Below are positions 13,598 through 44,856 of a stretch of DNA of 64,000 nt, in pieces (within the stretch, counting starts at the first letter, position 1; each line of letters starts with the position of its first letter). This DNA comes from a virus, in IMG/VR virus record IMGVR_UViG_3300025417_000018, positions 39,402-103,401 of that record, one strand, 5' to 3'. The translations under genes were made by a program, and so were the position numbers. Below the pieces are notes generated by a model. It worked only from the letters and a program-made list of their open reading frames with translations. It did no database searches and was not told the origin of the DNA.

Positions 13598-14272
13598 ATG
13601 GATTCTAAAAATGTGCTAAACTCTCAACTATTTGATTTAAACAAAAAAGGCACAATAATTATTGGAACTATGCGTTCTGGTTCTAATTTTCTACGTGCAT
13701 TAGTAGGTTCTAGACTAGCAGAGAGTAATATTCCTTATAATGATAATGGTGAGTATTTTACAGATAGATTTGATGTGGAAGGCACCGACGATGAATATTC
13801 ATATTTCAACATGGTTGAAAAACTACAAAAAGTAACAGCTAATAACGATAGTTATAGTGTTGGCACAATTGTCTATACAGAATTAGATATGATTTCATGC
13901 AATCCTAGTAGTTTTAAATGGTATAATGATAACTATCATTTAATTAAATTGTATAGAAGAAACTATATAAATCATTTTATGTCACATTGTATTTTTTTGC
14001 ATACCAATCGACAATACAAATATGATACTTTTTCGCAACTTGGTATGCCTTTACCAGTTAAGTATGATATACGTGAAATTAATAATTTTATAAAGAAAAT
14101 TCTAGAACTTAATAGATTTCCTTGCGACAATACACTGGTGTATGAAGACATAGAACCTGTGCCAATCGGTGAAGTGGTAAAAAATATATACAATATAACT
14201 CCTAAAGAATTTTTTGCTGATTATGATAAGTTAGTAGAAATGTTTAATTTATTGGAATACAATGTCGGGTGA
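13598..14272 (+). CDS. Sulfotransferase-like protein, 224 aa
   Basis: Residues 18-32 (GTIIIGTMRSGSNFL) form a strand-loop-helix like the 5'-phosphosulfate-binding loop of PAPS-dependent sulfotransferases (R-S-G-S-T/N). A second motif, IKLYRRNYINHFMSH (about 111-125), resembles the 3'-phosphate-binding segment (L-x-R-x-N-x-x-x-x-x-x-S). The length is near the lower end for the family. The gene begins 1 nt after the previous stop and overlaps the next by 11 nt. It may sulfate a sugar or protein made in this operon. A kinase-like P-loop is less likely given the RSGSN core. Confidence 0.6.
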   Translation: MDSKNVLNSQLFDLNKKGTIIIGTMRSGSNFLRALVGSRLAESNIPYNDNGEYFTDRFDVEGTDDEYSYFNMVEKLQKVTANNDSYSVGTIVYTELDMISCNPSSFKWYNDNYHLIKLYRRNYINHFMSHCIFLHTNRQYKYDTFSQLGMPLPVKYDIREINNFIKKILELNRFPCDNTLVYEDIEPVPIGEVVKNIYNITPKEFFADYDKLVEMFNLLEYNVG

Positions 14273-15827
14273 GTACGACCAATATGCTAGAGACATGCGT
14301 GACCGCTTGAATGCGGTCAGTCCATCACTATGTCTCGCAAAATGGCAACAAGTTTCAATACACTTGCCAAGTGGATTAACACAAAGCTGTTACCATCCTC
14401 CTACGCATAAGATTCCACTAGAGTTATTAAAAGATAATCCTAGTGTATTACACAATACACCTATCAAAATACATGAACGCAAACAAATGCTCAACGGTGA
14501 AAGACCTGAGGGTTGTAGTTACTGTTGGAAAGTAGAAGATGCACAAAGTGATGACCCCAAAGGTCACATGAGTGATAGACATTATCGCAGTAGTGAGTGG
14601 TGGAACGCACCAACATTTGACGAAGTAACAACAAATAGTTTTGACTATAATGTTACCCCTCGCTATGTAGAGGTTAATTTTAATCAAGCATGTAATTTCA
14701 AGTGCATGTATTGCAGTCCTCACCTAAGCACAAGTTGGGAAGAAGAAGTTAAAAAACATGGTGGGTATAAATTATCTGACATGACACACAACAACTTAGA
14801 GCATTTGGAGAAAAAGGGACTAATGCCACTTAAGGTTGCGGCTAAAGATAATCCATATGTTGAAGCATTTTGGCAATGGTTTCCTGAGATTTATCGTAAG
14901 TTACGTGTTTTTAGAATGACCGGCGGTGAACCACTCATGGACAAAAACACATTTAAAGTATTAGACTATGTAAATGAAAACCCACATGGTCAACTTGAAT
15001 TAAGTATAACAAGTAACATGTGTCCTCCAGATCAAAAACTATTTGATAAGTTTTTAGAAAAAGTAAAGGCACTAGAAGAATTACGTACATATGAAGACAA
15101 GGAAAACTTTAATGAGTTCAGCGGTAATCATTGGTATGTAGACAAAGGCTTCAAGCACTTTTGGTTGTTTGTATCATTAGATGGATTTGGGGAACAAGCA
15201 GAATATATGCGTACTGGATTAGAGTTTGACAGATTGTTGAACAATGTTCGTACCTTTTTACGTGAAACAAAATACAGCACAGTTAGTTTTATCAATACAT
15301 TCAACATGTTAAGCATTCCCAGCTTACATAAATTTTTAGAAATGATTTTAACACTACGTGAAGAATTTGGTGGACGTGCCCAAACTGAGTTTACAATCGC
15401 ACCCGAACAAACTGAAACTGAAAAAGAAAATAATATTGTACACAAAGTTTATAAGCAAAAGAAATATCAACGTGTATTCTTTGACATACCCATTCTACGT
15501 TATCCACCATGGTTCAGCATACAAAATGCAGGAGAATATGGTATCAAAGAAGTAGAACGTTGTTTGAAATATATGGAAGACAACGTACAAGGTGAAGACT
15601 ATTCGGAAACATTCGAAGGATTTAAACCCTATGAGATATTGAAAATCAAGCGAGACCTTGCTATAATGCAAGAATCTTTGCCAGCGGACCAAGTGTCACT
15701 AAATAAAACTAACTTCTACATGTTTATTAGTGAGTACGATAGACGTAGGCAAACAAATTTTATGGAAATATTTCCAGAACTAAAATGGTACTGGAGAGAA
15801 TGTATTAAAGCGTATACCAAACATTAA
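14262..15827 (+). CDS. Radical SAM protein 1 of 13 (AKW class), 521 aa
   Basis: The radical SAM cluster motif is C144-x3-C148-x2-C151 (CNFKCMYC), binding the [4Fe-4S] cluster that cleaves S-adenosylmethionine. The GGEP motif at 221-224 contacts SAM. Ahead of the core is a second cysteine set: C24 (CLAKW), C43 (SCYHPP), C85 and C88 (CSYCWKVED). It resembles a SPASM/twitch auxiliary-cluster ligand set but lies N-terminal instead of C-terminal. The block NPYVEAFWQWFPEI before GGEP is shared with proteins 2 and 6. The C-terminus carries the array signature YDRRRQTNFMEIFPEL. It is the longest of the set. Target unknown. Confidence 0.85.
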   Translation: MSGEYDQYARDMRDRLNAVSPSLCLAKWQQVSIHLPSGLTQSCYHPPTHKIPLELLKDNPSVLHNTPIKIHERKQMLNGERPEGCSYCWKVEDAQSDDPKGHMSDRHYRSSEWWNAPTFDEVTTNSFDYNVTPRYVEVNFNQACNFKCMYCSPHLSTSWEEEVKKHGGYKLSDMTHNNLEHLEKKGLMPLKVAAKDNPYVEAFWQWFPEIYRKLRVFRMTGGEPLMDKNTFKVLDYVNENPHGQLELSITSNMCPPDQKLFDKFLEKVKALEELRTYEDKENFNEFSGNHWYVDKGFKHFWLFVSLDGFGEQAEYMRTGLEFDRLLNNVRTFLRETKYSTVSFINTFNMLSIPSLHKFLEMILTLREEFGGRAQTEFTIAPEQTETEKENNIVHKVYKQKKYQRVFFDIPILRYPPWFSIQNAGEYGIKEVERCLKYMEDNVQGEDYSETFEGFKPYEILKIKRDLAIMQESLPADQVSLNKTNFYMFISEYDRRRQTNFMEIFPELKWYWRECIKAYTKH

Positions 15828-15836
15828 GGAAAACAC

Positions 15837-17369
15837 ATGGCAGGTAAAAAACACACAGAAAGTTTTGCAGAGTATAAAGCACGATTGATTGATCCAATTA
15901 GTGAGAGTTATTGTGCGGCAAAATGGCTAAACGCAACTATTTGGTTGGGTAATGGTCAAACAACAAGCTGTCACCACCCATTAGGTCATCAAATTGATGC
16001 CAATGAATTGATTGAAAACCCTTCAGCAATTCATAATACTCCACATAAAAAACTTATGCGTAAAATGATGCAGGAAGGCACACGTCCACAAGAGTGTGAG
16101 TACTGCTGGAAGATTGAAGATATTGGTCGTAACAACATCAGTGACCGCGTATACAAGACTGCTGTATTTGAAGAAGAACATATTTTAAAAACTGCCAAAG
16201 CAGATTGGCAAGAAAACACAATGTTGCGTACATTAGAAATTAGTTTTGATAGAACATGCAACTTTGGTTGCAGTTATTGTAACCCTAGTTTTAGCACAAC
16301 ATGGGTAAAAGACATTCACAAGTATGGCCCATATCGTAACATCGATGGTGATGCCCGTAGTCACTTTGTTAATGCGGCAGACCACGCAAAGCCATTGCCT
16401 GATGAAGTTAACCCATATATTCAAGCCTTTTGGCGTTGGTGGGAACAAGAAGATGGTCTTGCAGATAACTTAGAAGAAATTCGCATTACAGGTGGGGAGC
16501 CATTAATGGCTCCGGGCGTATGGAAACTATTCGAATGGTTCAAAGCAAATCAAGAACGTGTTAAAAATCGTAAAGATGGAAAAGTTATGCGTTATGCGAT
16601 TAACAGTAACTTAGTTCCTAAAGATGATATCATGGATAGATTGATTGAGTTAAGTCACTTTGTCCCGCACTTAGAAGTATACACTAGCGCAGAAAGTTTA
16701 GGCGCACATAGCGAATATATTCGTGATGGTTTCATTTGGGATAAATGGATTCATAATTTAACACGTTTACATACTGAAGGTAATATCAAAAAGACACACA
16801 TTATGATGACAATCAATAGTTTGTGTTTAGCAAGTATTACTGAGTTCATGGATGAAATACTAGCATTTAAGCGTAAGCATGACACTCACTATCCAACAAT
16901 GAGTTTGAACATCTTACGTTTCCCTAGCTTTCAAAGTTGCTCATTATTGCCAATGGATGTTCGTCAAAAGTACAGCGAAAAACTACAAGTATGGTTAGAT
17001 GAACAAATTGCAAAAGATGAAAGAACAACAGGCGGTAGCCCAATTCTTATGCATATTGAGCGTGAGCAAACACAACGACTGATTGACTATCTTGACGTTA
17101 TTAAAACTCCGCACAAAAATGTTAAAGACCCTGAGCAAAACAAACGTGACTTTAAACAATTCTACCATCAATATGATATTCGTAGAGGTAAAGACTTCCG
17201 TAATACATTCCCGCAAGAGTTTGTAGACTTTTACGATAGTATTGACACAGACTTACCAACTGAAACAGAAATCACAACAGGTCAATATAGTGATGGTACA
17301 GGGTATATTCCAATTCATCCTGCTGAAGATCCTAGTAAAGATGTGTTTGTTAACCCAGATTTACAATGA
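15837..17369 (+). CDS. Radical SAM protein 2 of 13 (AKW class), 510 aa
   Basis: N-terminal cysteines C26 (CAAKW), C45 (SCHHPLGH), C87 and C90 (CEYCWKIED) precede the radical SAM motif C141-C145-C148 (CNFGCSYC) and GGEP at 219-222. It shares the NPYIQAFWRWW block and the C-terminal YDIRRGKDFRNTFPQEF signature with its neighbours. A ~35-residue acidic, Pro-rich tail follows and is unique to this copy. It has its own GGAAA-type ribosome-binding site 9 nt behind the previous gene, and it overlaps the next gene by 4 nt. Closest to proteins 1 and 6; reaction unknown. Confidence 0.85.
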   Translation: MAGKKHTESFAEYKARLIDPISESYCAAKWLNATIWLGNGQTTSCHHPLGHQIDANELIENPSAIHNTPHKKLMRKMMQEGTRPQECEYCWKIEDIGRNNISDRVYKTAVFEEEHILKTAKADWQENTMLRTLEISFDRTCNFGCSYCNPSFSTTWVKDIHKYGPYRNIDGDARSHFVNAADHAKPLPDEVNPYIQAFWRWWEQEDGLADNLEEIRITGGEPLMAPGVWKLFEWFKANQERVKNRKDGKVMRYAINSNLVPKDDIMDRLIELSHFVPHLEVYTSAESLGAHSEYIRDGFIWDKWIHNLTRLHTEGNIKKTHIMMTINSLCLASITEFMDEILAFKRKHDTHYPTMSLNILRFPSFQSCSLLPMDVRQKYSEKLQVWLDEQIAKDERTTGGSPILMHIEREQTQRLIDYLDVIKTPHKNVKDPEQNKRDFKQFYHQYDIRRGKDFRNTFPQEFVDFYDSIDTDLPTETEITTGQYSDGTGYIPIHPAEDPSKDVFVNPDLQ

Positions 17370-18499
17370 CCGATAACAGATATATATGTCCATTGGCTTT
17401 TGGTGCTGTTCATTATGACATGGACAACAAAATGGGACCCTGTTCGTTAAACAACATGGTCAATGTCAAAACAATTGATGAATATCTGAAAGACGAAAAA
17501 CTACAACAATTAAAATCAGACATGAAAAATGGTATTAGAAATCCATTATGTAATTCATGTTATAATTTAGAGGAGATAGACCAAAATATTGGTAGCAATA
17601 GACAATTTTGGTTGTCAAAAACTGATAAAACTATTTTTGAATCAGATAATTTTTCTCACTTAGAAGTTAGATTTTCAAACATATGCAATTCTAAATGCAG
17701 AACGTGCATACCAAATACCAGTTCACCAATTGCCACAGAAGAAAAAAAATACTTAAATTGGAAGTTTCCGGTATTACGTTATTCTGGGATAGATGAAAAT
17801 TTTATATTAAATCAGTCAAAGCAAATTGCTAGTAATCTAAAAACAGTTACCTTTAGTGGAGGAGAGCCTCTACTACAATGGCAACATTGGGACTTTTTAG
17901 ATTATCTTATAGAAAACAAACTAGACCCTCAGTTGTTATATTACAGTAATGCATCACTATTGACATTTAAGAACCAACACATTTTTGATAAATGGAAACA
18001 TTTTAGTGATGTTATTTTTAGAGTAAGTATAGATGCAGTTGAAGATTCTGCCGAATATTGGAGACATGGAGAAAAATGGGATACAATTATTAATAACGTT
18101 AAACAAGTTAAACAATTAATGCCAAATGTTAAATTAGAGTATACAGTAACTATATCTTGGCCAAATGTTTTTCATGTAGAAAAGATAATTGATGCACTAG
18201 CTTCTTTTGATAATAAACCACAAATTAATTTTAATACAGTATACTCAGATTTGTTTAATTTGCAAGTATTACCTAAAAATATCAAAACACGTGTTGAAAA
18301 ATATTTTAATAGTATTGATAAAAATAAAGTTAATATGGATACATTGAAGGGAATGGTTTTATTTATGAACAGTAAAGATAAATCAAATTTGATGACAGCG
18401 GCAATAGCAAGATTAAAAGAAGTTGATTTACGTAGGGAAGAATCATTTATTAATGCGTTTCCCGAATACAAAGAAATGGCGATAGAATATGGATACTAA
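17366..18499 (+). CDS. Radical SAM protein 3 of 13, 377 aa
   Basis: N-terminal ligands C8 (ICPLAF), C26 (GPCSLNN), C62 and C65 (CNSCYNLEE); radical SAM motif C107-C111-C114 (CNSKCRTC); GGEP 165-168 (TFSGGEPLL). The N-terminal set reads F/L rather than KW or PW after the first Cys, so it is intermediate between the two main classes. The C-terminal signature VDLRREESFINAFPEYK is intact. Base composition is more AT-rich than in proteins 1 and 2, suggesting a separate history. Reaction unknown. Confidence 0.85.
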   Translation: MTDNRYICPLAFGAVHYDMDNKMGPCSLNNMVNVKTIDEYLKDEKLQQLKSDMKNGIRNPLCNSCYNLEEIDQNIGSNRQFWLSKTDKTIFESDNFSHLEVRFSNICNSKCRTCIPNTSSPIATEEKKYLNWKFPVLRYSGIDENFILNQSKQIASNLKTVTFSGGEPLLQWQHWDFLDYLIENKLDPQLLYYSNASLLTFKNQHIFDKWKHFSDVIFRVSIDAVEDSAEYWRHGEKWDTIINNVKQVKQLMPNVKLEYTVTISWPNVFHVEKIIDALASFDNKPQINFNTVYSDLFNLQVLPKNIKTRVEKYFNSIDKNKVNMDTLKGMVLFMNSKDKSNLMTAAIARLKEVDLRREESFINAFPEYKEMAIEYGY

Positions 18500-19898
18500 T
18501 AACAGAATAATCCCTATATGGGGAGATAATGCAAAGCCTGCTCCTGAAAGCAAAAACAAAGTGTTTTGCATGGCGCCATGGACACACACTTACATAAGCC
18601 CACAAAGCGAACGCAGATTATGTTGTGCCAGTCGTGAAGAACATAGCTTTCAAAAACAATATATTGACAGTAGTAATGATAGCAAGTATGGCAATGTAAA
18701 AGAAAGCGGTACTTCACTTGATGCATATAAGCCTATTAGTCTAAAAGAACATTGGAACAGTCCATACATGCGTGACATACGTGTTAAGTTAATGCGTGGC
18801 GAAGAGATTCCACAATGTGATGTATGCAACAAAAATCTATTGATGGAAGGTTATAGCTACCGCGGTTGGTTTACCGGTGCATTGTTCCGTGACAAAATAC
18901 AACAAGCATTTGATAGCACAGACGATAATGGTTACACCACGATGGAACCAATTAGTTTCGATTATCGCTTTAGCAATCTATGCAATTTCAAATGTCGTAT
19001 GTGCGGAGAACAATTAAGTAGCGCATGGGAAACTGAAAAGAAAACACATGATATGTGGACACCAAAGAATCAACCTTTTATGATTCCGGAAATCAAAAGT
19101 GCCATGCAAGACTTTCAAGTTAATGTTGTGGAAGCAGAATTTAAGGATGCGGTACGCAGGGGTATTGTTGAAGAAATGTATTGGGTTGGTGGTGAGCCAT
19201 TGATGTATGATATACATTGGTGGACATTAGAAGAAATGCTGAATAACGGGAGTAATGAGAAATGTTACATGCGTTATAACAGTAACTTAAGTCGTGTACA
19301 ATTTGGAAAGAAAAACTTATATGATTATCTTCCATTGTACAAAGACTGGATGATGTGTGCAAGTATTGATGGCACTGGTGAAATTGTTGAATACATTCGC
19401 ACAGGCATTAAATGGGACAAGTGGTTAGAAAACTTCAAGCAAGGACTAGCATTACCAAATGGTAAAGACAAAATGGTTCTTGATTTAACACTAACTGCTC
19501 CAGGCATGTTTTCAATTAAAGACTTGTTTGACTTGAGTATTGAATTAGATGTTAAGATTGAAACTAAAACAACGTTTGGCTTTCACAATGATATCATGTG
19601 GACACCATTAAGTTGGCCACGTCCTATACTCAACGACATGGTAGATGATATCTTAGAGTACATTACACCACGTGCTACGTGGAAACAAGACACCTTGATT
19701 GGTAACTTAAAGGCATTAAAAGAAACACGTAAAACACATGCCGAAGAGTGGCCAGAAACATACAAACAGGGTGCTAAAAACGGTAAAGGTTGGGTAGAAA
19801 GACTAGAGCAAATTCGTGAGAATCCGTTAACCCTACGTGACATTTACAGTCGTAACCCTGAATTATTAAAATGGTGGGATAATATTTACAATGAGTGA
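18489..19898 (+). CDS. Radical SAM protein 4 of 13 (PW class), 469 aa
   Basis: N-terminal cysteines C27 (FCMAPWTH), C45 and C46 (LCCASREE), C110 and C113 (CDVCNKN); radical SAM motif C165-C169-C172 (CNFKCRMC); GGEP 234-237. There is an insertion of ~45 residues between the core motif and GGEP compared with protein 5. The C-terminal signature is degenerate (LTLRDIYSRNPELLKWW). The ATG lies inside the end of protein 3 (11-nt overlap). The PW/CC/CxxC order matches the N-terminus of SPASM-like auxiliary-cluster proteins. Reaction unknown. Confidence 0.85.
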   Translation: MDTNNRIIPIWGDNAKPAPESKNKVFCMAPWTHTYISPQSERRLCCASREEHSFQKQYIDSSNDSKYGNVKESGTSLDAYKPISLKEHWNSPYMRDIRVKLMRGEEIPQCDVCNKNLLMEGYSYRGWFTGALFRDKIQQAFDSTDDNGYTTMEPISFDYRFSNLCNFKCRMCGEQLSSAWETEKKTHDMWTPKNQPFMIPEIKSAMQDFQVNVVEAEFKDAVRRGIVEEMYWVGGEPLMYDIHWWTLEEMLNNGSNEKCYMRYNSNLSRVQFGKKNLYDYLPLYKDWMMCASIDGTGEIVEYIRTGIKWDKWLENFKQGLALPNGKDKMVLDLTLTAPGMFSIKDLFDLSIELDVKIETKTTFGFHNDIMWTPLSWPRPILNDMVDDILEYITPRATWKQDTLIGNLKALKETRKTHAEEWPETYKQGAKNGKGWVERLEQIRENPLTLRDIYSRNPELLKWWDNIYNE

Positions 19899-21069
19899 TA
19901 CATTATGCGTACTACCCTGGATGCATTTGGCTACGCACCCTAACGGAGGAGCTAGCCTATGTTGCCGTAGCAATCATACAAATGCAATCAGTTGGGCAAA
20001 GAAAGATGACACACAAAGTCTAGTTATGCTTGACAATGATAGTGTTAGTGACATTATGAACAGTAAAAAGTTTATTGAAGTTCGCCAAGCTATGATAGAT
20101 GGACAACGTCCTGTTGAGTGTGAAGGCTGTTGGAGTGACGAAGACAAGGGCATTAAAAGCAAACGTCAATATGAAAACGAACGTTGGGCGCACATTATAC
20201 CTTTACTAGAAAAATCTGCTAAGTTACAAAACGTAGACTTGCGTTATGTAGAGTTACGATTGGGTAATGTATGTAACAATGCTTGTTTAACTTGCAACAG
20301 TTATAGCAGTAGCAAATGGTATCCTGATGAAAAGAAAATTGCTAAAGTGTTGCCTTGGTTCGAATTGCGCCCGCTTGAAAATTTCAAATGGTTTGAAAAA
20401 CCCGAGTTCTATCAAGACTTAGCAGAACACAGTAAAGACGTAGAAGAAATTTACATCAATGGTGGTGAACCTACATTGATTAAAGCACACTTTGAATACT
20501 TAAAGAAATTGATATTGTTAGATGTTGCACAAAATGTACATTTGGTTTACAGCTTGAACATGATGGATATTCCCAGCAACTTAATTGCATTATGGAAAAG
20601 TTTTAAAAAGGTTACAGTCAACGCAAGTATTGATGACTTGAATGAACGCAACTATTATATTCGTTACCCAACCAAATGGGAACAGACACTTAACAGTATT
20701 AAAAAACTAAACAAACTAAAGAATGTAGACTGGCATGTTACGCAGACTGTTAGCATTTTCAATATCTATAACTTAGACAAGTTTAGCGATTGGTTAAGTA
20801 GTGAATACAACAAACACCCACATCACAATTATGTGTTATACCCAGACTACTTAAGTCTAGCAGTATTGCCCAACCATATCAAAACTGAGTTGAAAGAATA
20901 CTATGCTGACAAGTTACCCGAATATCAACGCAATGATTTGTTTGCTAAACTTAACATAGAGTTTCAACCTGAACTACTAACTAAAGCCAAAGACTTTATT
21001 GTAGCAGTTGACAATGCACGTAATATAAGATATAATGATTACATACCAGAATTAGAGAAATTTTTATGA
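19891..21069 (+). CDS. Radical SAM protein 5 of 13 (PW class), 392 aa
   Basis: N-terminal cysteines C6 (LCVLPWMH), C24 and C25 (LCCRSNH), C77 and C80 (CEGCWSDED); radical SAM motif C128-C132-C135 (CNNACLTC); GGEP 191-194 (INGGEPTLI). The C-terminal signature is recognisable as DNARNIRYNDYIPELEKFL. It overlaps its upstream neighbour by 8 nt and its downstream neighbour by 4 nt. No precursor-binding (RRE-like) domain is evident at the N-terminus. Reaction unknown. Confidence 0.85.
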   Translation: MSDTLCVLPWMHLATHPNGGASLCCRSNHTNAISWAKKDDTQSLVMLDNDSVSDIMNSKKFIEVRQAMIDGQRPVECEGCWSDEDKGIKSKRQYENERWAHIIPLLEKSAKLQNVDLRYVELRLGNVCNNACLTCNSYSSSKWYPDEKKIAKVLPWFELRPLENFKWFEKPEFYQDLAEHSKDVEEIYINGGEPTLIKAHFEYLKKLILLDVAQNVHLVYSLNMMDIPSNLIALWKSFKKVTVNASIDDLNERNYYIRYPTKWEQTLNSIKKLNKLKNVDWHVTQTVSIFNIYNLDKFSDWLSSEYNKHPHHNYVLYPDYLSLAVLPNHIKTELKEYYADKLPEYQRNDLFAKLNIEFQPELLTKAKDFIVAVDNARNIRYNDYIPELEKFL

Positions 21070-23473: not shown

Positions 23474-23474
23474 A

Positions 23475-24632
23475 ATGATTGATTTAACACCTTATAAAGA
23501 ATGCTCTGCACATAAGCAATGGATTTTTATTGCCAATGCTAGTCAGATTGAATCAGCAAAAGTATATAAACCTTGCTGTTGGTTCAAATCTAGCATTGAA
23601 GCTAAAACACCTAATGATTTTTATTCTCAATTAGCTGAGTGTGATATTGAAACCAATTGTAAAGGATGTATTGACATGGAGAAATCAGGTCCATGGAGTC
23701 TAAGAACATCCTTTAAGGATAGCATACGTTCGGATAAAGTATTGGTTGTTACTGCATCGTTTGATAACTTATGCAATTTAAAATGCATTACATGTATACC
23801 TGAAAATAGCACACGTATTGCCGCAGAAAAACTACAAATAGAAGGTAAAGATATAAAATGGTTTAATAAAGTAATAAAGAGTCCGGCACCTGAAAAAATT
23901 GACTTTATTAAACAATTACTGGCAGAACGTGATTTTGAAGAATTTAGATTTGAAGTGTTAGGCGGTGAACCATTGATTAACCCAATGGTACTAGAGTTTA
24001 TTGATTGGTTAGCAGAACAGCCTTATGCAAAGAATACTGTGATAGTTATCACAACCAATGGAACAACCAAATGTGAAAACATACAAAAATACCTAAACAA
24101 ATTCAGCATGGTGGGTATTCAATTAAGTATAGACGGTACAGATAATGTATTTGAATATATTAGGTCTGGTGCAAATTATCAATCAACTAAAGAAACAATT
24201 GATTATTTTTATCAATATTATACCAATGCATCAAACATGACTTTTGGTTTTAATTATACATTGTCATGGATGAACTCTAGTAATTTCAAAGAATTTATTA
24301 ATTGGATAAGTACGGATTATCCAAAATTATCAGATTTATTGGTAACTAAATTAATTGGTCCTAATTATTATTCTGTTGACATATTATCTTCTGACAACAA
24401 ACGACAAATATGTGAATATGTTATTAATGGTATAAATCCCAACATAACCAACAAAACTATACTACGTGGTATAGAAATATTTAAACAACATATGGATTAT
24501 TCTGTGCCAAAAGATTTTGATACACGAAAATTTGATATAGCAATAGATACTTTAAATAATATAGATATCTTAAGAAATACAACATACCAAAATGCGTTTA
24601 ACCAAATAATTGAATTTATAAAACATGATTAA
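23475..24632 (+). CDS. Radical SAM protein 8 of 13 (CCWFK class), 385 aa
   Basis: N-terminal cysteines C10, C34 and C35 (PCCWFK), C62 and C65 (CKGCIDMEK), plus an extra C56; radical SAM motif C100-C104-C107 (CNLKCITC); GGEP 163-166 followed by LINPMVLEFIDWL. It is clearly paralogous along its whole length to the preceding gene, starting 1 nt after it ends. Divergence is high at DNA level, so the duplication is not recent. The C-terminal signature is weak (NIDILRNTTYQNAFNQI). Reaction unknown. Confidence 0.85.
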   Translation: MIDLTPYKECSAHKQWIFIANASQIESAKVYKPCCWFKSSIEAKTPNDFYSQLAECDIETNCKGCIDMEKSGPWSLRTSFKDSIRSDKVLVVTASFDNLCNLKCITCIPENSTRIAAEKLQIEGKDIKWFNKVIKSPAPEKIDFIKQLLAERDFEEFRFEVLGGEPLINPMVLEFIDWLAEQPYAKNTVIVITTNGTTKCENIQKYLNKFSMVGIQLSIDGTDNVFEYIRSGANYQSTKETIDYFYQYYTNASNMTFGFNYTLSWMNSSNFKEFINWISTDYPKLSDLLVTKLIGPNYYSVDILSSDNKRQICEYVINGINPNITNKTILRGIEIFKQHMDYSVPKDFDTRKFDIAIDTLNNIDILRNTTYQNAFNQIIEFIKHD

Positions 24633-25941
24633 TTTAACAGTAGAACAATTACCAAAAACATTTTGCAGTCTACCTTGGCTACAAATACATACAGAACCAG
24701 ACGGAGAGATAACACCATGCTGTTATTATAATCCTGCACATACCAAAGACAATGTATTAGGCAATTGGAACAACAGTACATTGATTGATACATTTCACAA
24801 TGACAAATGGAATCAGTTACGTAAGGACTTTTTAGATGGTAAAAAGCCTGAACCTTGCACTAAATGTTGGAGCGAAGAGGATAGTGGTATTGTTAGTATG
24901 CGTGAAAGATTTAATGAACGCTATTCACGATTCCCTGATGCATTAAGTCAAACCAATGCCAACAAATTAGAAGACATATTAAAGCATAGTGACACAGATG
25001 GCACAGTTGATAATGATTTAAAAATCTCAACAGTTGATTTAATCTTTAATAACTTGTGTAATTTGAAATGCCGTAGTTGTGGTACACGTTGTAGCACAGC
25101 TTGGATTCCTGATGAAATTAAATTAGGTCGTCATCATTTTACCACAAACTCAAGATTGTTAAGCAATGATTCAGAAAATGTACACACAGATTTAGAAGAA
25201 CTGGTTAATATCATTGATACATATACTGAAGTACACTTTAGCGGTGGTGAGGTTATGTTGCAACAAGACCACTATGATTTCTTAAAATTATTGATTGCTA
25301 AAAACAAAACTGATGTTAAGATACGTTACAATACCAATCTTACAACATATACACTTAAAGACGATAATGCATTTGAGTTACTACAGAAGTTTGACAATGT
25401 GTTTATTGTGGGTAGTGTTGATGCAATGGGCGCAGAAGGTGAATATATACGTAAAGGTTTTGATTGGAACGTTGCACTTGAATGGATCAAGACCGCTAAA
25501 GAATATTTGCCTAATAAAGATTATGGCATCACCGCAGTATATAGTTTATTAAATTGTTACCAAGCAGTTGATTTGCATAGATACATGTGTGAGAATAAAT
25601 TGTTTGATAAGTTTGGGTTTTATTTGAACACATTACATTACCCACAACATTTCAGAACCAATATATTGCCTCCTGATGTTAAACAAGAAGTAACAGAAAA
25701 AATTAAAAATCATTTAAAATGGTTAGAAGAAACACAAGAAAAGAATTTTACATATGACCAATCAATAAGTCATTGGGAAAATGCTATCATATTAATGAAT
25801 AGTCAACCAAGTGATAAAGAAATGTTGAAAAAATTCTTACACGAAACTGAACTATTAGATAATGTTAGAAATGAAAAGTTCAGCGATGTATTTCCCTATA
25901 TGTATGAAAAAATAACAAATTATGTCCAATCAAACGTTTGA
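24625..25941 (+). CDS. Radical SAM protein 9 of 13 (PW class, GGEV variant), 438 aa
   Basis: N-terminal cysteines C14 (FCSLPWLQ), C32 and C33 (PCCYY), C78 and C81 (CTKCWSEED); radical SAM motif C145-C149-C152 (CNLKCRSC) with an additional C156. The SAM-binding motif reads GGEV (207-210) rather than the GGEP of every other member with this domain layout. The C-terminal signature is DNVRNEKFSDVFPYMYE. It overlaps the previous gene by 8 nt and the next by 20 nt. The Pro-to-Val change is tolerated in some families, so activity is likely but not certain. Confidence 0.85.
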   Translation: MINLTVEQLPKTFCSLPWLQIHTEPDGEITPCCYYNPAHTKDNVLGNWNNSTLIDTFHNDKWNQLRKDFLDGKKPEPCTKCWSEEDSGIVSMRERFNERYSRFPDALSQTNANKLEDILKHSDTDGTVDNDLKISTVDLIFNNLCNLKCRSCGTRCSTAWIPDEIKLGRHHFTTNSRLLSNDSENVHTDLEELVNIIDTYTEVHFSGGEVMLQQDHYDFLKLLIAKNKTDVKIRYNTNLTTYTLKDDNAFELLQKFDNVFIVGSVDAMGAEGEYIRKGFDWNVALEWIKTAKEYLPNKDYGITAVYSLLNCYQAVDLHRYMCENKLFDKFGFYLNTLHYPQHFRTNILPPDVKQEVTEKIKNHLKWLEETQEKNFTYDQSISHWENAIILMNSQPSDKEMLKKFLHETELLDNVRNEKFSDVFPYMYEKITNYVQSNV

Positions 25942-27265
25942 TCCATTAGCATTAGCTAAAACAAGTAAAACATTTTGTATCTTTCCATGGATTCATCAAT
26001 ATGTAGGTCCACCAGGTGATGTTAAACCTTGCTGTGTGTATAGCCACAATGAACAAGTGGGTAGTCTTAAAGAAAACACATTAGAAGAAATATGGAACAA
26101 TGACAAAATGAAAAAAATGCGTTTAGATTTCTTAAACGGCATTGAAGAACCCAATTGTCACATATGTAACCAACGTGCGGAAATTGATTACGCACACAAG
26201 AATGAATACAACAAATTGTTTTTTGAAAAAAGCAAAGACATACAAGATATTGTAGCAAGTACTAACCCTGATGGTTCATTAGATGAACATAAATTGTATT
26301 ACATTGATGTACGATTTAATAACCTATGTAATTTAAGTTGCCGTAGTTGTGCCCCTCACTATAGCACTGGATGGATATTAGACCATAGAAAACTATACAA
26401 TTTGGTTGAGCGCAGAGACAAAGACGATGGATTTCAATATCCAGGTAAAACTGAAGAACAAGCATTTTTAGAAACATTACCACACTTAGCAACAGCTAAG
26501 TGCATTTACTTTGCAGGTGGTGAGCCATTGATGCAAAAAGAACACTATCAAATTTTAGATAAATTGATTGAGTTTGGCAACACAGATATTACTATCAGAT
26601 ACAACACAAACTTTACTAATTTCAAGTTAAAGAATTTTGATAATGTGTTAGAGTATTGGAAAAAGTTCAAAGACGTAAATGTATATGCAAGTTTAGATGG
26701 CAGTCATGAAAAAGCCGAATACTGGCGTAATGGCACAGATTGGAAACAAGTTGTAGAAAATCGTAAACGCATGATGGAACAAACTCCGCACGTTAACTTT
26801 AGTATAGCATATACATTAAGTTGGCCTAATGCATTTAACTTGGTAGAGTTTCATAGAGAATGGACTGAATTGGGATATATTCAACCTGATAAAATCATGG
26901 TTAATCCATTAGATACTCCTCCCTATTATTGTTTGAAGAATATTCCTGATTGGAAAAAGCGTGAAATTGAAATCAAACTAAATGAAAACATTGAGTGGCT
27001 AAAAACTTTTGGTAACTGCGAACATGTGGTAAGTATGTATGATACTGCAATTAAATTTATGTGGTCGGATACATCAAAATACCATGCGGGTATTGATGAA
27101 AGTCTTAGAGACTTTTGGCATATCACAACAAAACTAGATGATATTCGCAGTCAAAGTTTTTTTGATGTTTATCCAGAACATATCAATATGAAAAATTATA
27201 TTATACACAACAACTTAAACGTAACATTGCAAAAAGAACAGTACAATAAAATCAAGGTATTATAA
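25922..27265 (+). CDS. Radical SAM protein 10 of 13 (PW class), 447 aa
   Basis: N-terminal cysteines C19 (FCIFPWIH), C37 and C38 (PCCVY), C79 and C82 (CHICNQR); radical SAM motif C136-C140-C143 (CNLSCRSC); GGEP 199-202 (FAGGEPLMQ). Similar to protein 9 from the first cluster through the SxxTGW/STAW segment. The C-terminal signature LDDIRSQSFFDVYPEH is followed by a ~25-residue Asn/Lys tail. The final base of its stop codon is the first base of the next ATG (TAATG). Reaction unknown. Confidence 0.85.
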   Translation: MSNQTFDPLALAKTSKTFCIFPWIHQYVGPPGDVKPCCVYSHNEQVGSLKENTLEEIWNNDKMKKMRLDFLNGIEEPNCHICNQRAEIDYAHKNEYNKLFFEKSKDIQDIVASTNPDGSLDEHKLYYIDVRFNNLCNLSCRSCAPHYSTGWILDHRKLYNLVERRDKDDGFQYPGKTEEQAFLETLPHLATAKCIYFAGGEPLMQKEHYQILDKLIEFGNTDITIRYNTNFTNFKLKNFDNVLEYWKKFKDVNVYASLDGSHEKAEYWRNGTDWKQVVENRKRMMEQTPHVNFSIAYTLSWPNAFNLVEFHREWTELGYIQPDKIMVNPLDTPPYYCLKNIPDWKKREIEIKLNENIEWLKTFGNCEHVVSMYDTAIKFMWSDTSKYHAGIDESLRDFWHITTKLDDIRSQSFFDVYPEHINMKNYIIHNNLNVTLQKEQYNKIKVL

Positions 27266-28518
27266 TGGATGAGAAAAAACTTTTCAAGATACGTGATGAA
27301 ACCAGTCCAACAATGTGTTTGGCTAAGTTCCATGAAGCAAGTATTTGGGTATACTCGGGTAAAATAGCAAGTTGTCATTATACTCCCTTTATTCAAGTGG
27401 GCAACACAGTAGATACATTTTATAATCCTGCTGAAAAACGTGAACAACAAAAGCGTATGTTAGCAGGTGAACAACCTCCTGCATGTAATAGCTGTTGGCA
27501 TTATGAAAACTTAGGCTTGCGTAGTGACAGAACACGTAAAAGTTTAAGTTTCAAAGACCATCTAAGTGCAGATGATTATAAAAATCCTAACTACGTATTC
27601 AAGCCCAAAGCATTAGAATTAGCATTTCAGAATACATGTAACTTAGCATGTAGCTATTGCAGTCCGCAGTTCAGTACAGCATGGATGAATGATATTAGAA
27701 ATCAAGGAGTCTATCAGGACATTACAACTGACGACCGCAGACATTATCAAAAAGATATTGCTGAGATACAACAAATGATTGACCCTCCCGATATGAATTT
27801 GTTTTGGGATTGGTTCACTACCGTTGCAGATGGACTAGAAAGCATACGTGTTAGTGGTGGCGAACCCTTAATGCATGAAGAAGTGTTTCGTGTGTTTGAA
27901 ATGATGACACAAATGAACCCACACATTGAATGCGTGATACACAGTAACTTATGTCAAAAGCCCGTTGTTATGGACAGATTTTTTGACAAGATTAGTAAAC
28001 TTACAAACTTACGCATGAATATCAGTAATGAAAGCGCAGGAGAAACTGCGGAGTTTATTCGTGAGGGTATGGTATATAGTGAATGGTTAGAAAATGTAGA
28101 AAGACTAGGTAACAGTACAGTTAAAGAATTTACAATCAGCACCACAGTAAGCGCAATTGCGTTACAGAGTTTGGATCAAATGTATTTGGATATTATTGAC
28201 ATACGTAAGCGTACCAAAGTAAAACCTTATATATCAATTAACATGGTTGACAAGCCAGACTTTCAAGGTTTTGGTTGCCTAACACGACAAGAACGTGATT
28301 TTTATATTGACAAGTATACAAAATTTTACGATAGTATTAGTAATGATTTGTTACCTGTTGAACAAGAACATTGCAACAGATTATTAACTATGTTAGATAG
28401 TGGTTTAGTGAAAGAAAATCAACAACAATTGCGTGTTGATAGTGATATCTTTTTTGAACAGTACACTAAGCGTAGAAATAAACCGGACAATTTAGCAAAA
28501 TATATAGGAAAAAAATAA
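27265..28518 (+). CDS. Radical SAM protein 11 of 13 (AKW-like class), 417 aa
   Basis: N-terminal cysteines C18 (MCLAKFHE), C37 (SCHYTPF), C74 and C77 (CNSCWHYEN); radical SAM motif C125-C129-C132 (CNLACSYC); GGEP 198-201 (VSGGEPLMH). The FWDWF segment before GGEP aligns with the FWQW block of proteins 1 and 6. The C-terminal signature begins well (QYTKRRNKPDN) but the FPE part is absent (LAKYIGKK), so the tail is shortened. One-base overlap (TAATG) on both sides. Reaction unknown. Confidence 0.85.
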   Translation: MDEKKLFKIRDETSPTMCLAKFHEASIWVYSGKIASCHYTPFIQVGNTVDTFYNPAEKREQQKRMLAGEQPPACNSCWHYENLGLRSDRTRKSLSFKDHLSADDYKNPNYVFKPKALELAFQNTCNLACSYCSPQFSTAWMNDIRNQGVYQDITTDDRRHYQKDIAEIQQMIDPPDMNLFWDWFTTVADGLESIRVSGGEPLMHEEVFRVFEMMTQMNPHIECVIHSNLCQKPVVMDRFFDKISKLTNLRMNISNESAGETAEFIREGMVYSEWLENVERLGNSTVKEFTISTTVSAIALQSLDQMYLDIIDIRKRTKVKPYISINMVDKPDFQGFGCLTRQERDFYIDKYTKFYDSISNDLLPVEQEHCNRLLTMLDSGLVKENQQQLRVDSDIFFEQYTKRRNKPDNLAKYIGKK

Positions 28519-29714
28519 TGGATAAGATGTATCATAAAGTGGCAAGACTGCACATTGAGTTATCAAGTAGATGCAATGCCAGTTGCCCGGCATGTAGTAG
28601 AAATTTTTCTGGTGGTGCAGTAGTACCAGACTTAGAACTTACAGAACTATCGCTTGAAGATATTAAAAGAATGGTTCCGGTAGAGATAGCACAAAACTTA
28701 ATTGGAATTAATTATTGCGGTAATGTTGGAGATCCTGGAATGGCTCCTGACTTGTTACCAATCATGAAATATTTTTCAGAGCATTCAAGTAAAGTTATAC
28801 AACAAGTAAGAACCAATGGTGGTATGCGTAATACTGAGTTTTGGACTAGCATGGGTGAGTTTTTTGCGGAACAACAAAACCGTACTCCCAAATTTTGGGA
28901 CAATCACTTGTTTAACCAACCGGGTGTTGTGTTTAGTGTTGATGGACTAGAAGACACAAATCACATTTATCGCAGAGGGGTCAAGTGGGAAAAAGTTATT
29001 GCTAACATGAGAGCATATAGTGCTACCGGGGCCAAAGCAATATGGGAATGGCTGTTATTTGACCACAATAAACATCAAGTAGAAGAAGCACAAAAGTTGG
29101 CAAAAGAGTTGGGATTTATATTCTCAATGAAAAATCCTTTAGGTTTTGGTGAATACGATGACAAACCAACTCCTATTAATGTTTATGACAAAGAAGGATA
29201 TTTCGAGTACAGTATTTGGCCTGCAAATGCTAGTTTTTCTAAAGAAGAAGTTTATACTCCGCCTTTAGGTTACAAAGTTGATTTTAGTAAAGGTGTATTA
29301 AGTACTGCACAAGATAGACATATACCTATTATTAGCGAGTTTGGTAAAAGTTTAGAAAATGATGGCATAGCGTGTAAATCAATTGAACACCCTGAACATG
29401 GTGAAGTATACATATCAGCCAATGGGTATATGTTACCTTGTTGTTTCTTGGGTGGAGTATTTGGTCAATTTCATAGTTCATATTCACGTTTTCAGTTTAA
29501 CACATTGATTAGAGAATATGGGCTTGATAAATTTGATTTGAAAGTATATAATATGGTAGAAGTATTAAACGGTCCTTACTTTCAAAAATTCTTTTTAGAT
29601 GGATGGAGTAGACCAACTATTGAAGGTGGTAAATTGTTATTCTGTTTAGAAACATGTGGTAAAAAATCTGCCATGGACAAGTTATATGTAAATAAAGTAA
29701 TCAAAAAAGGATGA
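28518..29714 (+). CDS. Radical SAM protein 12 of 13, conventional SPASM layout, 398 aa
   Basis: This member differs from the others: the radical SAM motif C19-C23-C26 (CNASCPAC) is at the very N-terminus, with no cysteine set before it. Auxiliary cysteines lie in the C-terminal half (C286, C308, C309, C376, C380), as in ordinary SPASM proteins. No GGEP is present; a VGDPG segment (70-74) occupies the equivalent place. FSVDGLEDTNHIYRRGVKW (139-157) is typical of MoaA/SPASM-like enzymes common in large phages. It could install a distinct modification, or mature a shared substrate. Confidence 0.8.
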   Translation: MDKMYHKVARLHIELSSRCNASCPACSRNFSGGAVVPDLELTELSLEDIKRMVPVEIAQNLIGINYCGNVGDPGMAPDLLPIMKYFSEHSSKVIQQVRTNGGMRNTEFWTSMGEFFAEQQNRTPKFWDNHLFNQPGVVFSVDGLEDTNHIYRRGVKWEKVIANMRAYSATGAKAIWEWLLFDHNKHQVEEAQKLAKELGFIFSMKNPLGFGEYDDKPTPINVYDKEGYFEYSIWPANASFSKEEVYTPPLGYKVDFSKGVLSTAQDRHIPIISEFGKSLENDGIACKSIEHPEHGEVYISANGYMLPCCFLGGVFGQFHSSYSRFQFNTLIREYGLDKFDLKVYNMVEVLNGPYFQKFFLDGWSRPTIEGGKLLFCLETCGKKSAMDKLYVNKVIKKG

Positions 29715-29717
29715 TAT

Positions 29718-30470
29718 ATGAGAATAGGTGTATTTGGAGATAGTTTTGCGGATAGAGCTCCGCACAATCCTGATAGTCCCTTTAAGGAAGACGAATCTTG
29801 GATTAGATTTATTGAAGAAGGTGGAAACAAGATAACCACTTATGGTAAAACAGGTACCAGCACGTGGTATGCATATCAGCAATTTTTAGCACATCATGAC
29901 CAATTTGACCACATTGTGTTCATGCATTCTTCATTGCATCGTATACATCATTTGCCACATGGTTGTGAAGGATTACATTTCTTAAACACTCCCGATGAGT
30001 TATATGAAACACGCAGAAACAAAGAATTAACAATTGAACAAGAACTTGAAATGGTAAGAATTCTTACTGGTCGTGCTATAAATATAGATACTGAGTTTGA
30101 TGTTTGGGTAAAACAAAAAATCTTCAATGATGTAAATGATATATGCAGAAACAAAAATATTAAATTAGTAAATGTGTTAACATTTGAAGACCGTAGAGAC
30201 AAACATTTAAGTACCAACTTAGATAACCGTCATGGTCCATGTTTATACAATTTAATATCAGTAAGTAGAAATGAATTGCCCAATATGAATCGTGTTGACA
30301 ATCGTTGGTGTCATTTATCTAAAGAAAGAAACATGATTTTTGCTAAAATAATTTCTGAGTGTTGGGAACTATATCCTGAAATTATTGACTTGTATAAAAA
30401 TCCTGAACTTACTTGCAAGAACAAAGAAATTATCGAAAGATACTCCACAGATTTAGACAAAAAAGATTGA
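29718..30470 (+). CDS. SGNH-hydrolase-like protein A, 250 aa
   Basis: It starts with MRIGVFGDSFADR, the block-I signature (G-D-S) of SGNH/GDSL hydrolases with the catalytic Ser at position 9. A candidate C-terminal His lies in CHLSKERN (about 200), the usual place of the D-x-x-H pair, but the Asp is not obvious. Such proteins remove or transfer acyl groups on sugars. It starts 3 nt after the last of twelve tandem radical SAM genes. No signal peptide, so it acts in the cytoplasm. Substrate unknown. Confidence 0.65.
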   Translation: MRIGVFGDSFADRAPHNPDSPFKEDESWIRFIEEGGNKITTYGKTGTSTWYAYQQFLAHHDQFDHIVFMHSSLHRIHHLPHGCEGLHFLNTPDELYETRRNKELTIEQELEMVRILTGRAINIDTEFDVWVKQKIFNDVNDICRNKNIKLVNVLTFEDRRDKHLSTNLDNRHGPCLYNLISVSRNELPNMNRVDNRWCHLSKERNMIFAKIISECWELYPEIIDLYKNPELTCKNKEIIERYSTDLDKKD

Positions 30471-30471
30471 A

Positions 30472-31224
30472 ATGATAAAACGAATTATACTGCTAGGTGA
30501 TAGTTTTACATTTGGACATGGGTGCTCAGACAAAAATTATTACTTTGATATTGAAAAGAAAGTATGGGTGGGAAGTATGGCATCCGACTTTCACTTGAAA
30601 CCTAGCAATTATTGCTGGGGTTCTTTGTTACAAAACAATATTAACAATGCATTGGTAATAAATGCAAGTAAACCGGGACATTCATATTCAGGAATGTTTA
30701 GAGATTTAATGACACTACATGCCAGTAGCAATATAAATTCAGACTATTTAATTGTAGCGGCCGGAGCTTTTATGGACAGAATTGAAGTGGCAAGCTATCT
30801 TAATCCAGAAGATCCAGTAACTTGGTCTATCAAATTTGATGGTTCTTTTTACAGAGACAATGATCCTAAAGATTATAGTACTGCAAAAATGATGTATGCA
30901 AAATACTTGTATAATGATAGTATTGGTCTACAAAATGCATTTACCAGTATCATGGGAATATATGGGGTAGCCAAAGCATGTAACGCACAATTTGCTTGGT
31001 CTATGCCTCTGGTTGGCGTTGATTATTCTAAACTAAAGTACAAAATATCAAAACTAGTACCTAACTATTTCCCTCATATATTTAGGTATGATTTTTCAGG
31101 AAGAGAAAATGAAGAATTTAATAAAACATGTTATCAGCCTGATGGACATTGCAATGACACAGGACATAAAATTTATTTTGATAGAGTTATAATGCCCTTT
31201 ATGAAACAGTTAGGAATTAGTTAA
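30472..31224 (+). CDS. SGNH-hydrolase-like protein B, 250 aa
   Basis: A clear block I at 8-14 (LGDSFTFG) and a C-terminal block V with DGHCNDTGH, which holds both a D-x-H and a second His as needed for the catalytic dyad. It is paralogous to the next protein: both have a GC.D..YYFD stretch after block I, a Y-CW segment and an RYDFSGR block before the His motif. An acetyl-esterase or acyltransferase on a glycan is the family expectation. Cytoplasmic by sequence. Confidence 0.7.
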   Translation: MIKRIILLGDSFTFGHGCSDKNYYFDIEKKVWVGSMASDFHLKPSNYCWGSLLQNNINNALVINASKPGHSYSGMFRDLMTLHASSNINSDYLIVAAGAFMDRIEVASYLNPEDPVTWSIKFDGSFYRDNDPKDYSTAKMMYAKYLYNDSIGLQNAFTSIMGIYGVAKACNAQFAWSMPLVGVDYSKLKYKISKLVPNYFPHIFRYDFSGRENEEFNKTCYQPDGHCNDTGHKIYFDRVIMPFMKQLGIS

Positions 31225-31994
31225 TGAGTACAATATTAGTAGTAGGGGATAGCTATACATATGGTCAAGGTTGTAAGGATAGAATATATTATTTTGATGA
31301 GAAAACAAAAACTCATTTAGGTAAACCCTTTGAATATCCCAATGACCCTTCTAGCGAATACTGCTGGGCAACATTATTAAATCAACAGTTACCATATTAT
31401 AATGTAGTTAATTTAGCAAGCCCGGGCAATAGTCAATTTGGAATTTTCAAGGACACAGTTGATTATATCAATCAACATGACGATATAGCATTGGTGTTAT
31501 TTAATGGAACATTCATGGATCGTTTTAGTTTAGCAGGGTATAAAGATCCTGAAATGATTGTGCCGTGGTGCCCTGCTTGGGGCGATGACCCGGATAAAAT
31601 AAATAATCCATTATATCCAATCGCATATAATGAATATAGAAATGCAAGAGTTCAGTTTTACAAATATCTTACAAATGACACAATAATGTATTATCAAAGT
31701 TTAATGTCAACATTGGCAACTTATTCGTTTGTAACATCTAAAAATATAAAATTTTTATGGTGTAATCCCGAAACAATACATTCTGATATGAATACTAAAT
31801 TCAAAGAATTAGAAATACTTAAACATTTGCAATATAGACATATAGCTAGGTATGATTTTTCTGGGCGTATGGACTTTGAACACAATTGGAACCATTATCA
31901 TTTTATCGACAATCATGTTAATGAAGCCGGACATTTAATGTATTTCAGACAAGAATTATTCCCATTGGTTAAAAGAACCTTAAATATAGTATGA
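31224..31994 (+). CDS. SGNH-hydrolase-like protein C, paralogue of B, 256 aa
   Basis: Block I reads VVGDSYTYGQG (6-16) and block V reads DNHVNEAGH near residue 240. Shared with protein B: the YYFDEKTKT region, YCWATLL, FNGTFMDRF versus AAGAFMDRI, and ARYDFSGRM. Tandem duplication is therefore likely. One-base overlap (TAATG) with B and a 4-nt overlap with the following radical SAM gene. A role as glycan O-acyl esterase/transferase is inferred from the family. Confidence 0.7.
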   Translation: MSTILVVGDSYTYGQGCKDRIYYFDEKTKTHLGKPFEYPNDPSSEYCWATLLNQQLPYYNVVNLASPGNSQFGIFKDTVDYINQHDDIALVLFNGTFMDRFSLAGYKDPEMIVPWCPAWGDDPDKINNPLYPIAYNEYRNARVQFYKYLTNDTIMYYQSLMSTLATYSFVTSKNIKFLWCNPETIHSDMNTKFKELEILKHLQYRHIARYDFSGRMDFEHNWNHYHFIDNHVNEAGHLMYFRQELFPLVKRTLNIV

Positions 31995-33265
31995 ACAAAA
32001 AAACATTCCCTATAGTAAACGATGCCGCATGTCTATATAAATGGACATGGAGCACATTATTCTTAAATCGAGGAACTACTGCTAGTTGCCATCGTGGATT
32101 TCATTGGAAATTAAATAAAGATACACTAAAAGATTTTCATAATCATCCGGGCAAATTAGGTGATAGAGAAAAAATGTTAGAAGGTATATGGCCAGGTAAC
32201 GGTTGCGAATATTGTCGCAATGTTGAACAAGCAGGTGGGGTAAGCGATAGAATTGGATTTGCAAACAAATCAGTTGAATTGCTTCCGTATGAATTAGAAA
32301 CAAACCCTAAAGAAATCAACGTAAACCCTAGACTGTTGGAAGTATACTTTAGCAACGTGTGCAATCAATCATGCGTTTATTGTACCCCCGGCTTTAGTAG
32401 CGTTATTGAACAAGAAGTACGTAAGTATGGTAAAAGCCAATTCAATGATGACTATAGTAACTTTAGAGCAGATGACAGAGATAACTATGATGAGTATGTA
32501 AAACAATTCTGGGAATGGATGCATGAAAACTCAAAAGATTTAGTAATTTACAATACATTGGGTGGAGAGCCCATGTATCAAAAAGAATTTGAACAGCATT
32601 TAGAATTTTTTGAAACACATGACAATCCAAATTTAATTTGGCGTATCTTTTCAAATCTAAATCATGAGCCTGAAAAGTTCAAGGAAAAAATCAATAGAAT
32701 TCAAAAATTAGTAGAAGCTAAAAAATTAAAACGTTTTGAAATTACTGCAAGTATTGATTGTTGGGGACCAGAATTAGAGTATGCACGTTATGGTCTTAAC
32801 TTAGAAAATTGCGAAAAGAATATCAATACCGTGTTAGAAAGTTGGGGAGTTGTGTTGCAAATACATGCTACACTAACTGCTGTAACATTACCTGCATTGC
32901 ATAAATTAATTGACATGTTCTGTGGTCAATGGATATTGAAAAATAAAACTGCCAACCTCAATTGGAACACAGTGGTTAGACCTGACTGCTTTAACCCGTA
33001 TAACTTTGGAAAGCACTTGGTGCCATATGTAGACAAAGCCATTGAAGCACTTAATAAATATAAAAAAGATTATAGCCCGGAAATCAATTCATTAACCGGT
33101 ATTAAAAAGCAAATGTTGGCTACTCCCGTAAGTGTTAAAGCTGTAAACGACTTACATGGATTCTTAGATGATTTAGATGTTAGAAGAAATCTAGATTGGA
33201 AAAAGATTTACCCTGACATTGTAGAAATCATTGACACTATAAACAAGGAGAACACAAATGTTTAG
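31991..33265 (+). CDS. Radical SAM protein 13 of 13 (AKW-like class), 424 aa
   Basis: N-terminal cysteines C14 (CLYKW), C33 (SCHRGFH), C72 and C75 (CEYCRNVEQ); radical SAM motif C124-C128-C131 (CNQSCVYC); GGEP 191-194 (TLGGEPMYQ). The FWEWM block before GGEP and the C-terminal DVRRNLDWKKIYPDI signature tie it to the main array although three SGNH genes separate it. Overlaps the small gene that follows by 8 nt. Reaction unknown. Confidence 0.85.
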   Translation: MNKKTFPIVNDAACLYKWTWSTLFLNRGTTASCHRGFHWKLNKDTLKDFHNHPGKLGDREKMLEGIWPGNGCEYCRNVEQAGGVSDRIGFANKSVELLPYELETNPKEINVNPRLLEVYFSNVCNQSCVYCTPGFSSVIEQEVRKYGKSQFNDDYSNFRADDRDNYDEYVKQFWEWMHENSKDLVIYNTLGGEPMYQKEFEQHLEFFETHDNPNLIWRIFSNLNHEPEKFKEKINRIQKLVEAKKLKRFEITASIDCWGPELEYARYGLNLENCEKNINTVLESWGVVLQIHATLTAVTLPALHKLIDMFCGQWILKNKTANLNWNTVVRPDCFNPYNFGKHLVPYVDKAIEALNKYKKDYSPEINSLTGIKKQMLATPVSVKAVNDLHGFLDDLDVRRNLDWKKIYPDIVEIIDTINKENTNV

Positions 33266-44850: not shown

Positions 44851-44856
44851 GAGAGT

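Follow-up and report, generated by a model that had tools for sequence, protein, structure and literature searches.

Why a phage should carry thirteen radical S-adenosylmethionine (SAM) genes side by side, and what their products would act on, is the question raised by a 64,000-nucleotide stretch of viral DNA (the window), bases 39402–103401 of the 103,401-bp IMG/VR record IMGVR_UViG_3300025417_000018; the record is labelled G000 among the contigs compared, and unprefixed coordinates are those of the window. Radical SAM enzymes perform chemistry that few other enzymes can do, and the array is an old fixed set under strong purifying selection. The reading favoured here, with a probability of slightly under one half (about 0.48), is that the array provides the radical chemistry of a host-recognition island, by which an unusual glycan or glycoprotein of the tail fibre or cell surface would be made or tailored, and the product of the array is probably a decoration of the virus or host surface.

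The thirteen open reading frames (ORFs) are intact, lie on the plus strand and fall within 14262–33265, with twelve contiguous from 14262 to 29714 and the thirteenth at 31991–33265, after three SGNH-like genes. Searches of the record with PF04055 and NF033640 each returned thirteen matches, ten of the PF04055 matches being above the curated cut-off, and the radical SAM matches are beyond chance, with E-values down to 1e-110. All thirteen proteins possess CxxxCxxC and twelve possess GGEP or GGEV, the product of 28518–29714 having GNVGDP at the same position. Nine of the eleven junctions among the contiguous twelve overlap, with spacing of -20 to +9 bp. The gene count, motifs and overlapping packing are as described in the initial annotation of this DNA. 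Lettered in order, seven genes are referred to as core, A (14262–15827; 288 bits against NF033640), B (15837–17369), D (18489–19898), E (19891–21069), F (21066–22349), J (25922–27265; 365 bits) and K (27265–28518), and three as frequent, G (22340–23473), I (24625–25941) and M (31991–33265; 232 bits). Two are accessory, C (17366–18499), for which a clear orthologue is absent from close relatives, and H (23475–24632), whose closest paralogue is G at 44% identity. The last, L (28518–29714), is divergent and conserved, with an N-terminal radical core, the GNVGDP motif and C-terminal cluster cysteines.

NF033640 (N_Twi_rSAM, the NCBIfam family of twitch domain-containing radical SAM proteins) has a curated cut-off of 170 bits applied to the whole-protein score, which ten of the proteins exceed; G and H fall slightly below it (161–167 bits), and L, at 34.6–38.4 bits, falls far below and is not assigned to the family. 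As judged from sequence, twelve of the thirteen are N-terminal-twitch (N-twitch) enzymes and L is a divergent thirteenth. The twelve have four auxiliary-cluster cysteines N-terminal to the radical core (C19, C38, C79 and C82 in J), and in their alignment C19, C79, C82 and C136/C140/C143 are invariant and C38 nearly so. A profile of the twelve matched, over its N-terminal part, the auxiliary-cluster domain of BtrN (PDB 4m7t; E=7.7e-6), which indicates that the twitch domain has shifted from the C- to the N-terminus. Enzyme J gave a confident predicted model (predicted local distance difference test score, pLDDT, 92.6), for which no whole-length counterpart was found in the PDB; its matches there are to the generic radical SAM core, led by BlsE, GDGT-MAS and anSME with template modelling (TM) scores by query of at most 0.36, and its full-length fold matches are all uncharacterised phage proteins. 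BlsE is also the best PDB sequence match of L. No experimentally characterised relative of the N-twitch architecture was found, and the NCBIfam text for NF033640 assigns it no function.

The constancy of the set was assessed across 16 contigs including the window's own, with nine related IMG/VR contigs (50–352 kb) found first and six more of the same lineage then read in detail; near-duplicates (G001/G002 and G008/G009) leave about 14 distinct. All 16 have genes A, B, D, E, F, J and K in identical order, 15 also have L, and many have I, M and G; C, H and the further positions N, O and P are optional. In a tree built from 88 proteins of eight contigs, every core paralogue falls into its own clade with a single copy per contig. 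Paralogues within the window share only 14–44% identity (median 21%), whereas core orthologues are mostly 60–91% identical between the window and the nine first-found contigs, with L down to 51% in the most distant. For the pair G003 and G004, nonsynonymous divergence (pN) of the seven core N-twitch genes is 0.037–0.076 and their ratio of nonsynonymous to synonymous divergence (dN/dS) is 0.038–0.057, compared with dN/dS of 0.072 for the terminase and 0.18–0.37 for several structural and SGNH-like genes nearby; synonymous sites are almost saturated in this pair, which makes the dN/dS values rough and leaves the pN ranking clear. The low identity of paralogues, high identity of orthologues and low dN/dS indicate that each enzyme has its own constrained role, and the core dN/dS bears out the earlier impression that the genes show no decay. 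An origin by recent tandem duplication was rejected on the tree clades and low paralogue identities.

The carriers are a lineage of large uncultured T4-like phages, and the terminase of the window's phage is closest (50% identity) to those of Pseudomonas jumbo phages of the PA5oct/Paride kind. A collection scan used a profile of J orthologues and the window's enzyme I, the alignment of the twelve paralogues being too divergent for that use, and gave 260 viral candidates, from which 79 loci were retained; 27 records among these have 2–17 NF033640 members each, and PF04055 counts reach 18 in G033 (275 kb) and 19 in G035 (303 kb). In single-enzyme searches of 50,697 annotated phages, Vibrio phages K566/K567 were the only ones with a small cluster that could be recognised. 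The size of the array, which the initial annotation considered exceptional, is so by comparison with cultured phages, but among uncultured relatives the array is the rule. Many relatives with equally large arrays had been named as the observation that would count against that claim, and such relatives exist: the nine first-found contigs have 9–17 NF033640 matches each, further viral contigs have 2–17, and twelve radical SAM genes together with an A-type iron-sulfur (Fe-S) carrier have been reported in one 183-kb T4-like genome (PMC5332604).

Bacterial relatives are chiefly Bdellovibrionota, with 7–17 per genome. One contig binned to a Neisseriaceae metagenome-assembled genome (L139) encodes proteins nearly identical to those of a 303-kb phage (L129) and may itself be of phage origin. 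Other phages have B12-type radical SAM, epimerase, DegT or UDP-sugar dehydrogenase genes near their arrays. An uncharacterised family of about 350–400 amino acids without a Pfam match (L072:13871–15001 and 13 other loci) directly adjoins an N-twitch gene in 12 of 13 cases, also in other phages.

Most of the 16 contigs share the same flanks, with a fibre gene, two GT8 genes and GTx, a putative GT-A-like transferase, on one side of the array and SGNH-like, carbamoyltransferase and repeat-protein genes on the other, so that the synteny with SGNH, carbamoyltransferase and giant repeat genes suggested in the initial annotation is present in the relatives. The neighbouring genes of the window from 7501 to 41027 are likewise on the plus strand. 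Upstream of the island are a baseplate wedge gene, a 6337-amino-acid ORF and fibre-like genes; the giant ORF (G000:27721–46734, reaching window positions 2–7333) lies between the baseplate and fibre genes and is about 45–56% identical to its relatives in the aligned parts. It is followed by a 206-amino-acid structural-type protein matching phrog_11259 (7501–8121; 87–90% identity in relatives), a tail-fibre-like protein with a weak Peptidase_G2 (IMC) match (8153–9412) and a second fibre-like or structural protein (family w9431; 9431–10384) that is conserved next to arrays. Proteins of 101 (10437–10742) and 123 (12285–12656) amino acids are conserved together with the island and bracket the two GT8 (glycogenin-like) glycosyltransferases, GT8a (10739–11542) and GT8b (11539–12288), which are placed in GT8 by a profile comparison with the PDB (glycogenin-2, E=1.9e-9) and a DxD-type motif in the alignment and whose activity is predicted from sequence. 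GTx (12643–13596; model pLDDT 84.8) also has a DxD-type motif and is the commonest array partner; its best PDB match, to the PBCV-1 capsid glycosyltransferase, is partial (E 8.7e-4), and a search of the PDB with a GTx profile gave no useful match. A sulfotransferase-like P-loop protein (13598–14272), so labelled by motif reading only, is present in some relatives.

Downstream, the SGNH-like proteins s1 (29718–30470), s2 (30472–31224) and s3 (31224–31994) precede radical SAM gene M and s4 (33386–34228) follows it, with s2 and s4 evolving fast; these labels come from a GDSF/GDSY block I and a C-terminal histidine read by eye, the four proteins having no match to the Pfam SGNH/GDSL domain. The Nol/NodU-type carbamoyltransferase (34225–35706) has N- and C-terminal domains both above cut-off (PF16861, 3.5e-48, 163.8 bits; PF02543, 1.1e-30, 107.7 bits) and a match to phrog_1601 (6e-92). 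The adjacent 1770-amino-acid repeat protein (35715–41027) consists of about 15–17 copies of a 64–68-residue unit (FDFSWxPDPxxPPYIYVFGNQW..GATExKY) and a C-terminal domain homologous to GTx; copy number differs between phages, from 10 to 17. No relatives of the repeat protein were found among the 50,697 annotated phages and none of GTx in cultured phages. The 352-kb G005 has its GT8, GTx, carbamoyltransferase and repeat families solely next to the array, and up to 52 of 71 further viral loci have the GTx/repeat family, 34 have SGNH-like proteins, 31 GT8 and 15 the carbamoyltransferase. Beyond the repeat protein, two overlapping genes (41096–42223 and 42144–44066) encode secreted-looking proteins rich in Asn/Thr and Gln/Ser, with relatives only in G005 among the compared contigs.

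The longer relatives also encode Fe-S supply proteins, IscU, IscA or both, with A-type carrier (IscA-type) genes in G003, G004, G005, G007, G008 and G009 and IscU genes in G003, G005, G008, G035 and G036; in G008 the two lie side by side, 15 kb from the array. Neither was seen in the window's 103-kb record, which is a fragment. With two clusters per N-twitch protein, phage Fe-S genes would be understandable if the phage produces large amounts of these enzymes.

From this arrangement we infer that the substrate is a saccharide or glycoprotein, that each core enzyme contributes one step and that the product is displayed on the fibre or on the surface of the host. All thirteen enzymes, twelve with an N-terminal and one with a C-terminal twitch, would each hold a SAM-cleaving [4Fe-4S] cluster and an auxiliary cluster, loaded by phage IscU/IscA-type proteins, and each would make one specific change at an unreactive C–H of a saccharide or glycoprotein, such as an oxidation, epimerisation, dehydration or decarboxylation. 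Assembly of the modified product would fall to the two glycogenin-like transferases and the GT-A-like transferase, and its capping to the carbamoyltransferase and the SGNH-like and sulfotransferase-like proteins, with seven to eight core enzymes as the fixed set and the others as optional tailoring. The more specific proposal, that the tail fibres bear a novel glycan or glycoprotein, densely modified and built by a fixed multi-enzyme pathway with phage-borne Fe-S proteins, is tentative and less likely than not. Favouring a sugar are the ranking of BlsE, which acts on a nucleoside sugar, first for L by sequence and for J by fold; the likeness of the N-terminal domain to BtrN, an aminocyclitol dehydrogenase; the bacterial relatives in L137, which lie 4–8 kb from nucleotidyltransferase, GDP-mannose-dehydratase-type, DegT and GT2 genes; a single-cell marine virus fragment in which SGNH-like, carbamoyltransferase and N-twitch genes are consecutive; and the gene company in the tail-fibre island of Pelagibacter phage Mosig, described below. 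Several observations weigh on the other side. Sequence and structure comparison did not identify the substrate of the array enzymes, and the fold matches of J cover only the generic core and include the peptide-modifying anSME and SkfB. A nucleotide-sugar pathway is absent from the island (the nearest epimerase is at 57434–58444), many Bdellovibrionota N-twitch clusters have no obvious sugar genes nearby, and on contigs G007–G009 the core array is present but both GT8 and GTx are missing, such that the sugar genes are not always adjacent. The SGNH and sulfotransferase labels, resting on motifs and lacking Pfam matches, count here as well.

Characterised SPASM/twitch enzymes mostly act on peptides, and the main rival is that the array consists of post-translational modifiers of phage proteins (the fibres, the 6337-amino-acid giant or the 1770-amino-acid repeat protein), introducing a crosslink, epimer or oxidation at one site per enzyme in the manner of SPASM/twitch maturases of ribosomally synthesised and post-translationally modified peptides (RiPPs). 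The array enzymes match SkfB and anSME, among others, in sequence or fold, the array adjoins fibre and giant structural genes, and the repeat protein offers repeated aromatic motifs. Pfam scans found no RiPP recognition element (PqqD) in the array enzymes, the gaps between array genes leave no space for precursor-peptide genes, and the best scores against RiPP-maturase NCBIfam models are about 43 against cut-offs in the hundreds, which keeps the enzymes outside those families; the missing recognition element and precursor space argue against a classic RiPP system and not against modification of virion proteins. A scheme of one enzyme per repeat was rejected, as the numbers of repeats (17/15/14/12/10) do not track those of enzymes (13/9/14/14/11) in G000/G006/G004/G005/G003, and the constant partners of the array are glycosyltransferases. 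Protein modification is judged unlikely, if the most serious competitor. The same glycan chemistry might instead be directed at the host envelope, converting lipopolysaccharide (LPS) or capsule to block superinfection or remodel the cell. Some bacterial relatives lie near O-antigen-type genes, LPS-type glycosyltransferases occur in phage host-recognition clusters (PMC7029224) and an LpxH-like phosphoesterase-fold gene (47214–47984) and a GT4 gene (48919–49923) lie about 14–16 kb downstream of the array, but the array sits in the structural region beside fibre genes and the window yielded no recognisable membrane-bound polymerase or flippase; a host target is considered quite unlikely.

The remaining alternatives are remoter. 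Counter-defence or nucleotide chemistry, by viperin-like or nucleic-acid-modifying enzymes, could be read into weak viperin-profile matches and into the viperin and QueE fold matches, which share the radical core; with a top score of 29.6 bits against the cut-off of 180 for prokaryotic viperin (NF038283), thirteen paralogues and glycosyltransferases for company, it is very improbable. The initial annotation allowed either a multi-step pathway or many alternative specificities, and the fixed multi-enzyme set fits better, since seven paralogues keep their order and identity in 16 contigs and form one-copy clades. A bank of alternative or redundant specificities from recent duplication would account for the gain and loss of positions C, H, N, O and P between relatives; set against paralogues 14–44% identical, one copy per genome in each clade, low dN/dS and invariant order, it is most improbable. 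Mis-assembly, raised earlier as a possible undoing of the array, has no point in its favour and a negligible chance, and it was rejected because independent contigs from many datasets agree in order and content.

The window also contains a permuted transfer-messenger RNA (tmRNA) gene (44808–45267, plus strand; RF04321 138.8 bits, beta_tmRNA 134.4 bits, ARAGORN tag ANDSVYSLAA), whose sequence type hints at a betaproteobacterial host, as does IscU. G005 also possesses a tmRNA gene (L016:3288–3696), followed by a tRNA with a CUA anticodon, and has 34 tRNA genes in about 15 kb (L027). TAG stops are scarce, ending 2 of 59 stop-terminated genes in G000, 6 of 244 in G005, 1 of 57 in G003 and 3 of 94 in G004. 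An alternative code with TAG as sense, considered in view of the rare TAG stops and the CUA tRNA, was rejected, as no long open frames follow TAG-ending genes apart from one in-frame neighbour.

In this lineage of uncultured jumbo T4-like phages, at least seven distinct radical SAM enzymes are kept under selection stronger than that on the terminase and the phages bring Fe-S assembly proteins of their own, which points to an extensive and so far undescribed pathway of tailoring, beside the genes that decide infection range. The kind of locus is already known, a phage host-recognition island with radical SAM genes, and the present array is a variant of it. The pelagimyophage host-recognition cluster likewise adjoins tail-fibre genes and contains glycosyltransferases and radical SAM cassettes (PMC7029224). 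The window has fibre-like and baseplate genes upstream and glycosyltransferases inside; the pelagimyophage cluster is a variable island between VrlC and gp14, whereas the array here is conserved and not hypervariable, and VrlC and gp14 were not identified. In the cultured Pelagibacter phage Mosig, an ArnB-like aminotransferase and a carbamoyltransferase accompany MoaA-like radical SAM genes beside the tail fibres, but its radical SAM genes are few and differently built, with no N-twitch array. TARA_ERS488813_N000010, also a marine T4-like virus, is closest in number, its twelve radical SAM genes being a count taken from the paper (PMC5332604) and not a comparison of gene order; it too has a gene for an A-type Fe-S carrier. 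Among individual enzymes, BtrN has its twitch domain at the C-terminus instead of the N-terminus and a radical core only distantly alike, and BlsE (PDB 7vob), a radical SAM cytosylglucuronate decarboxylase, aligns with J over the radical core only (TM by query 0.35). Members of NF033640 share with the array the N-terminal twitch and radical SAM core, from which the phage locus differs in holding twelve divergent members in one fixed array.

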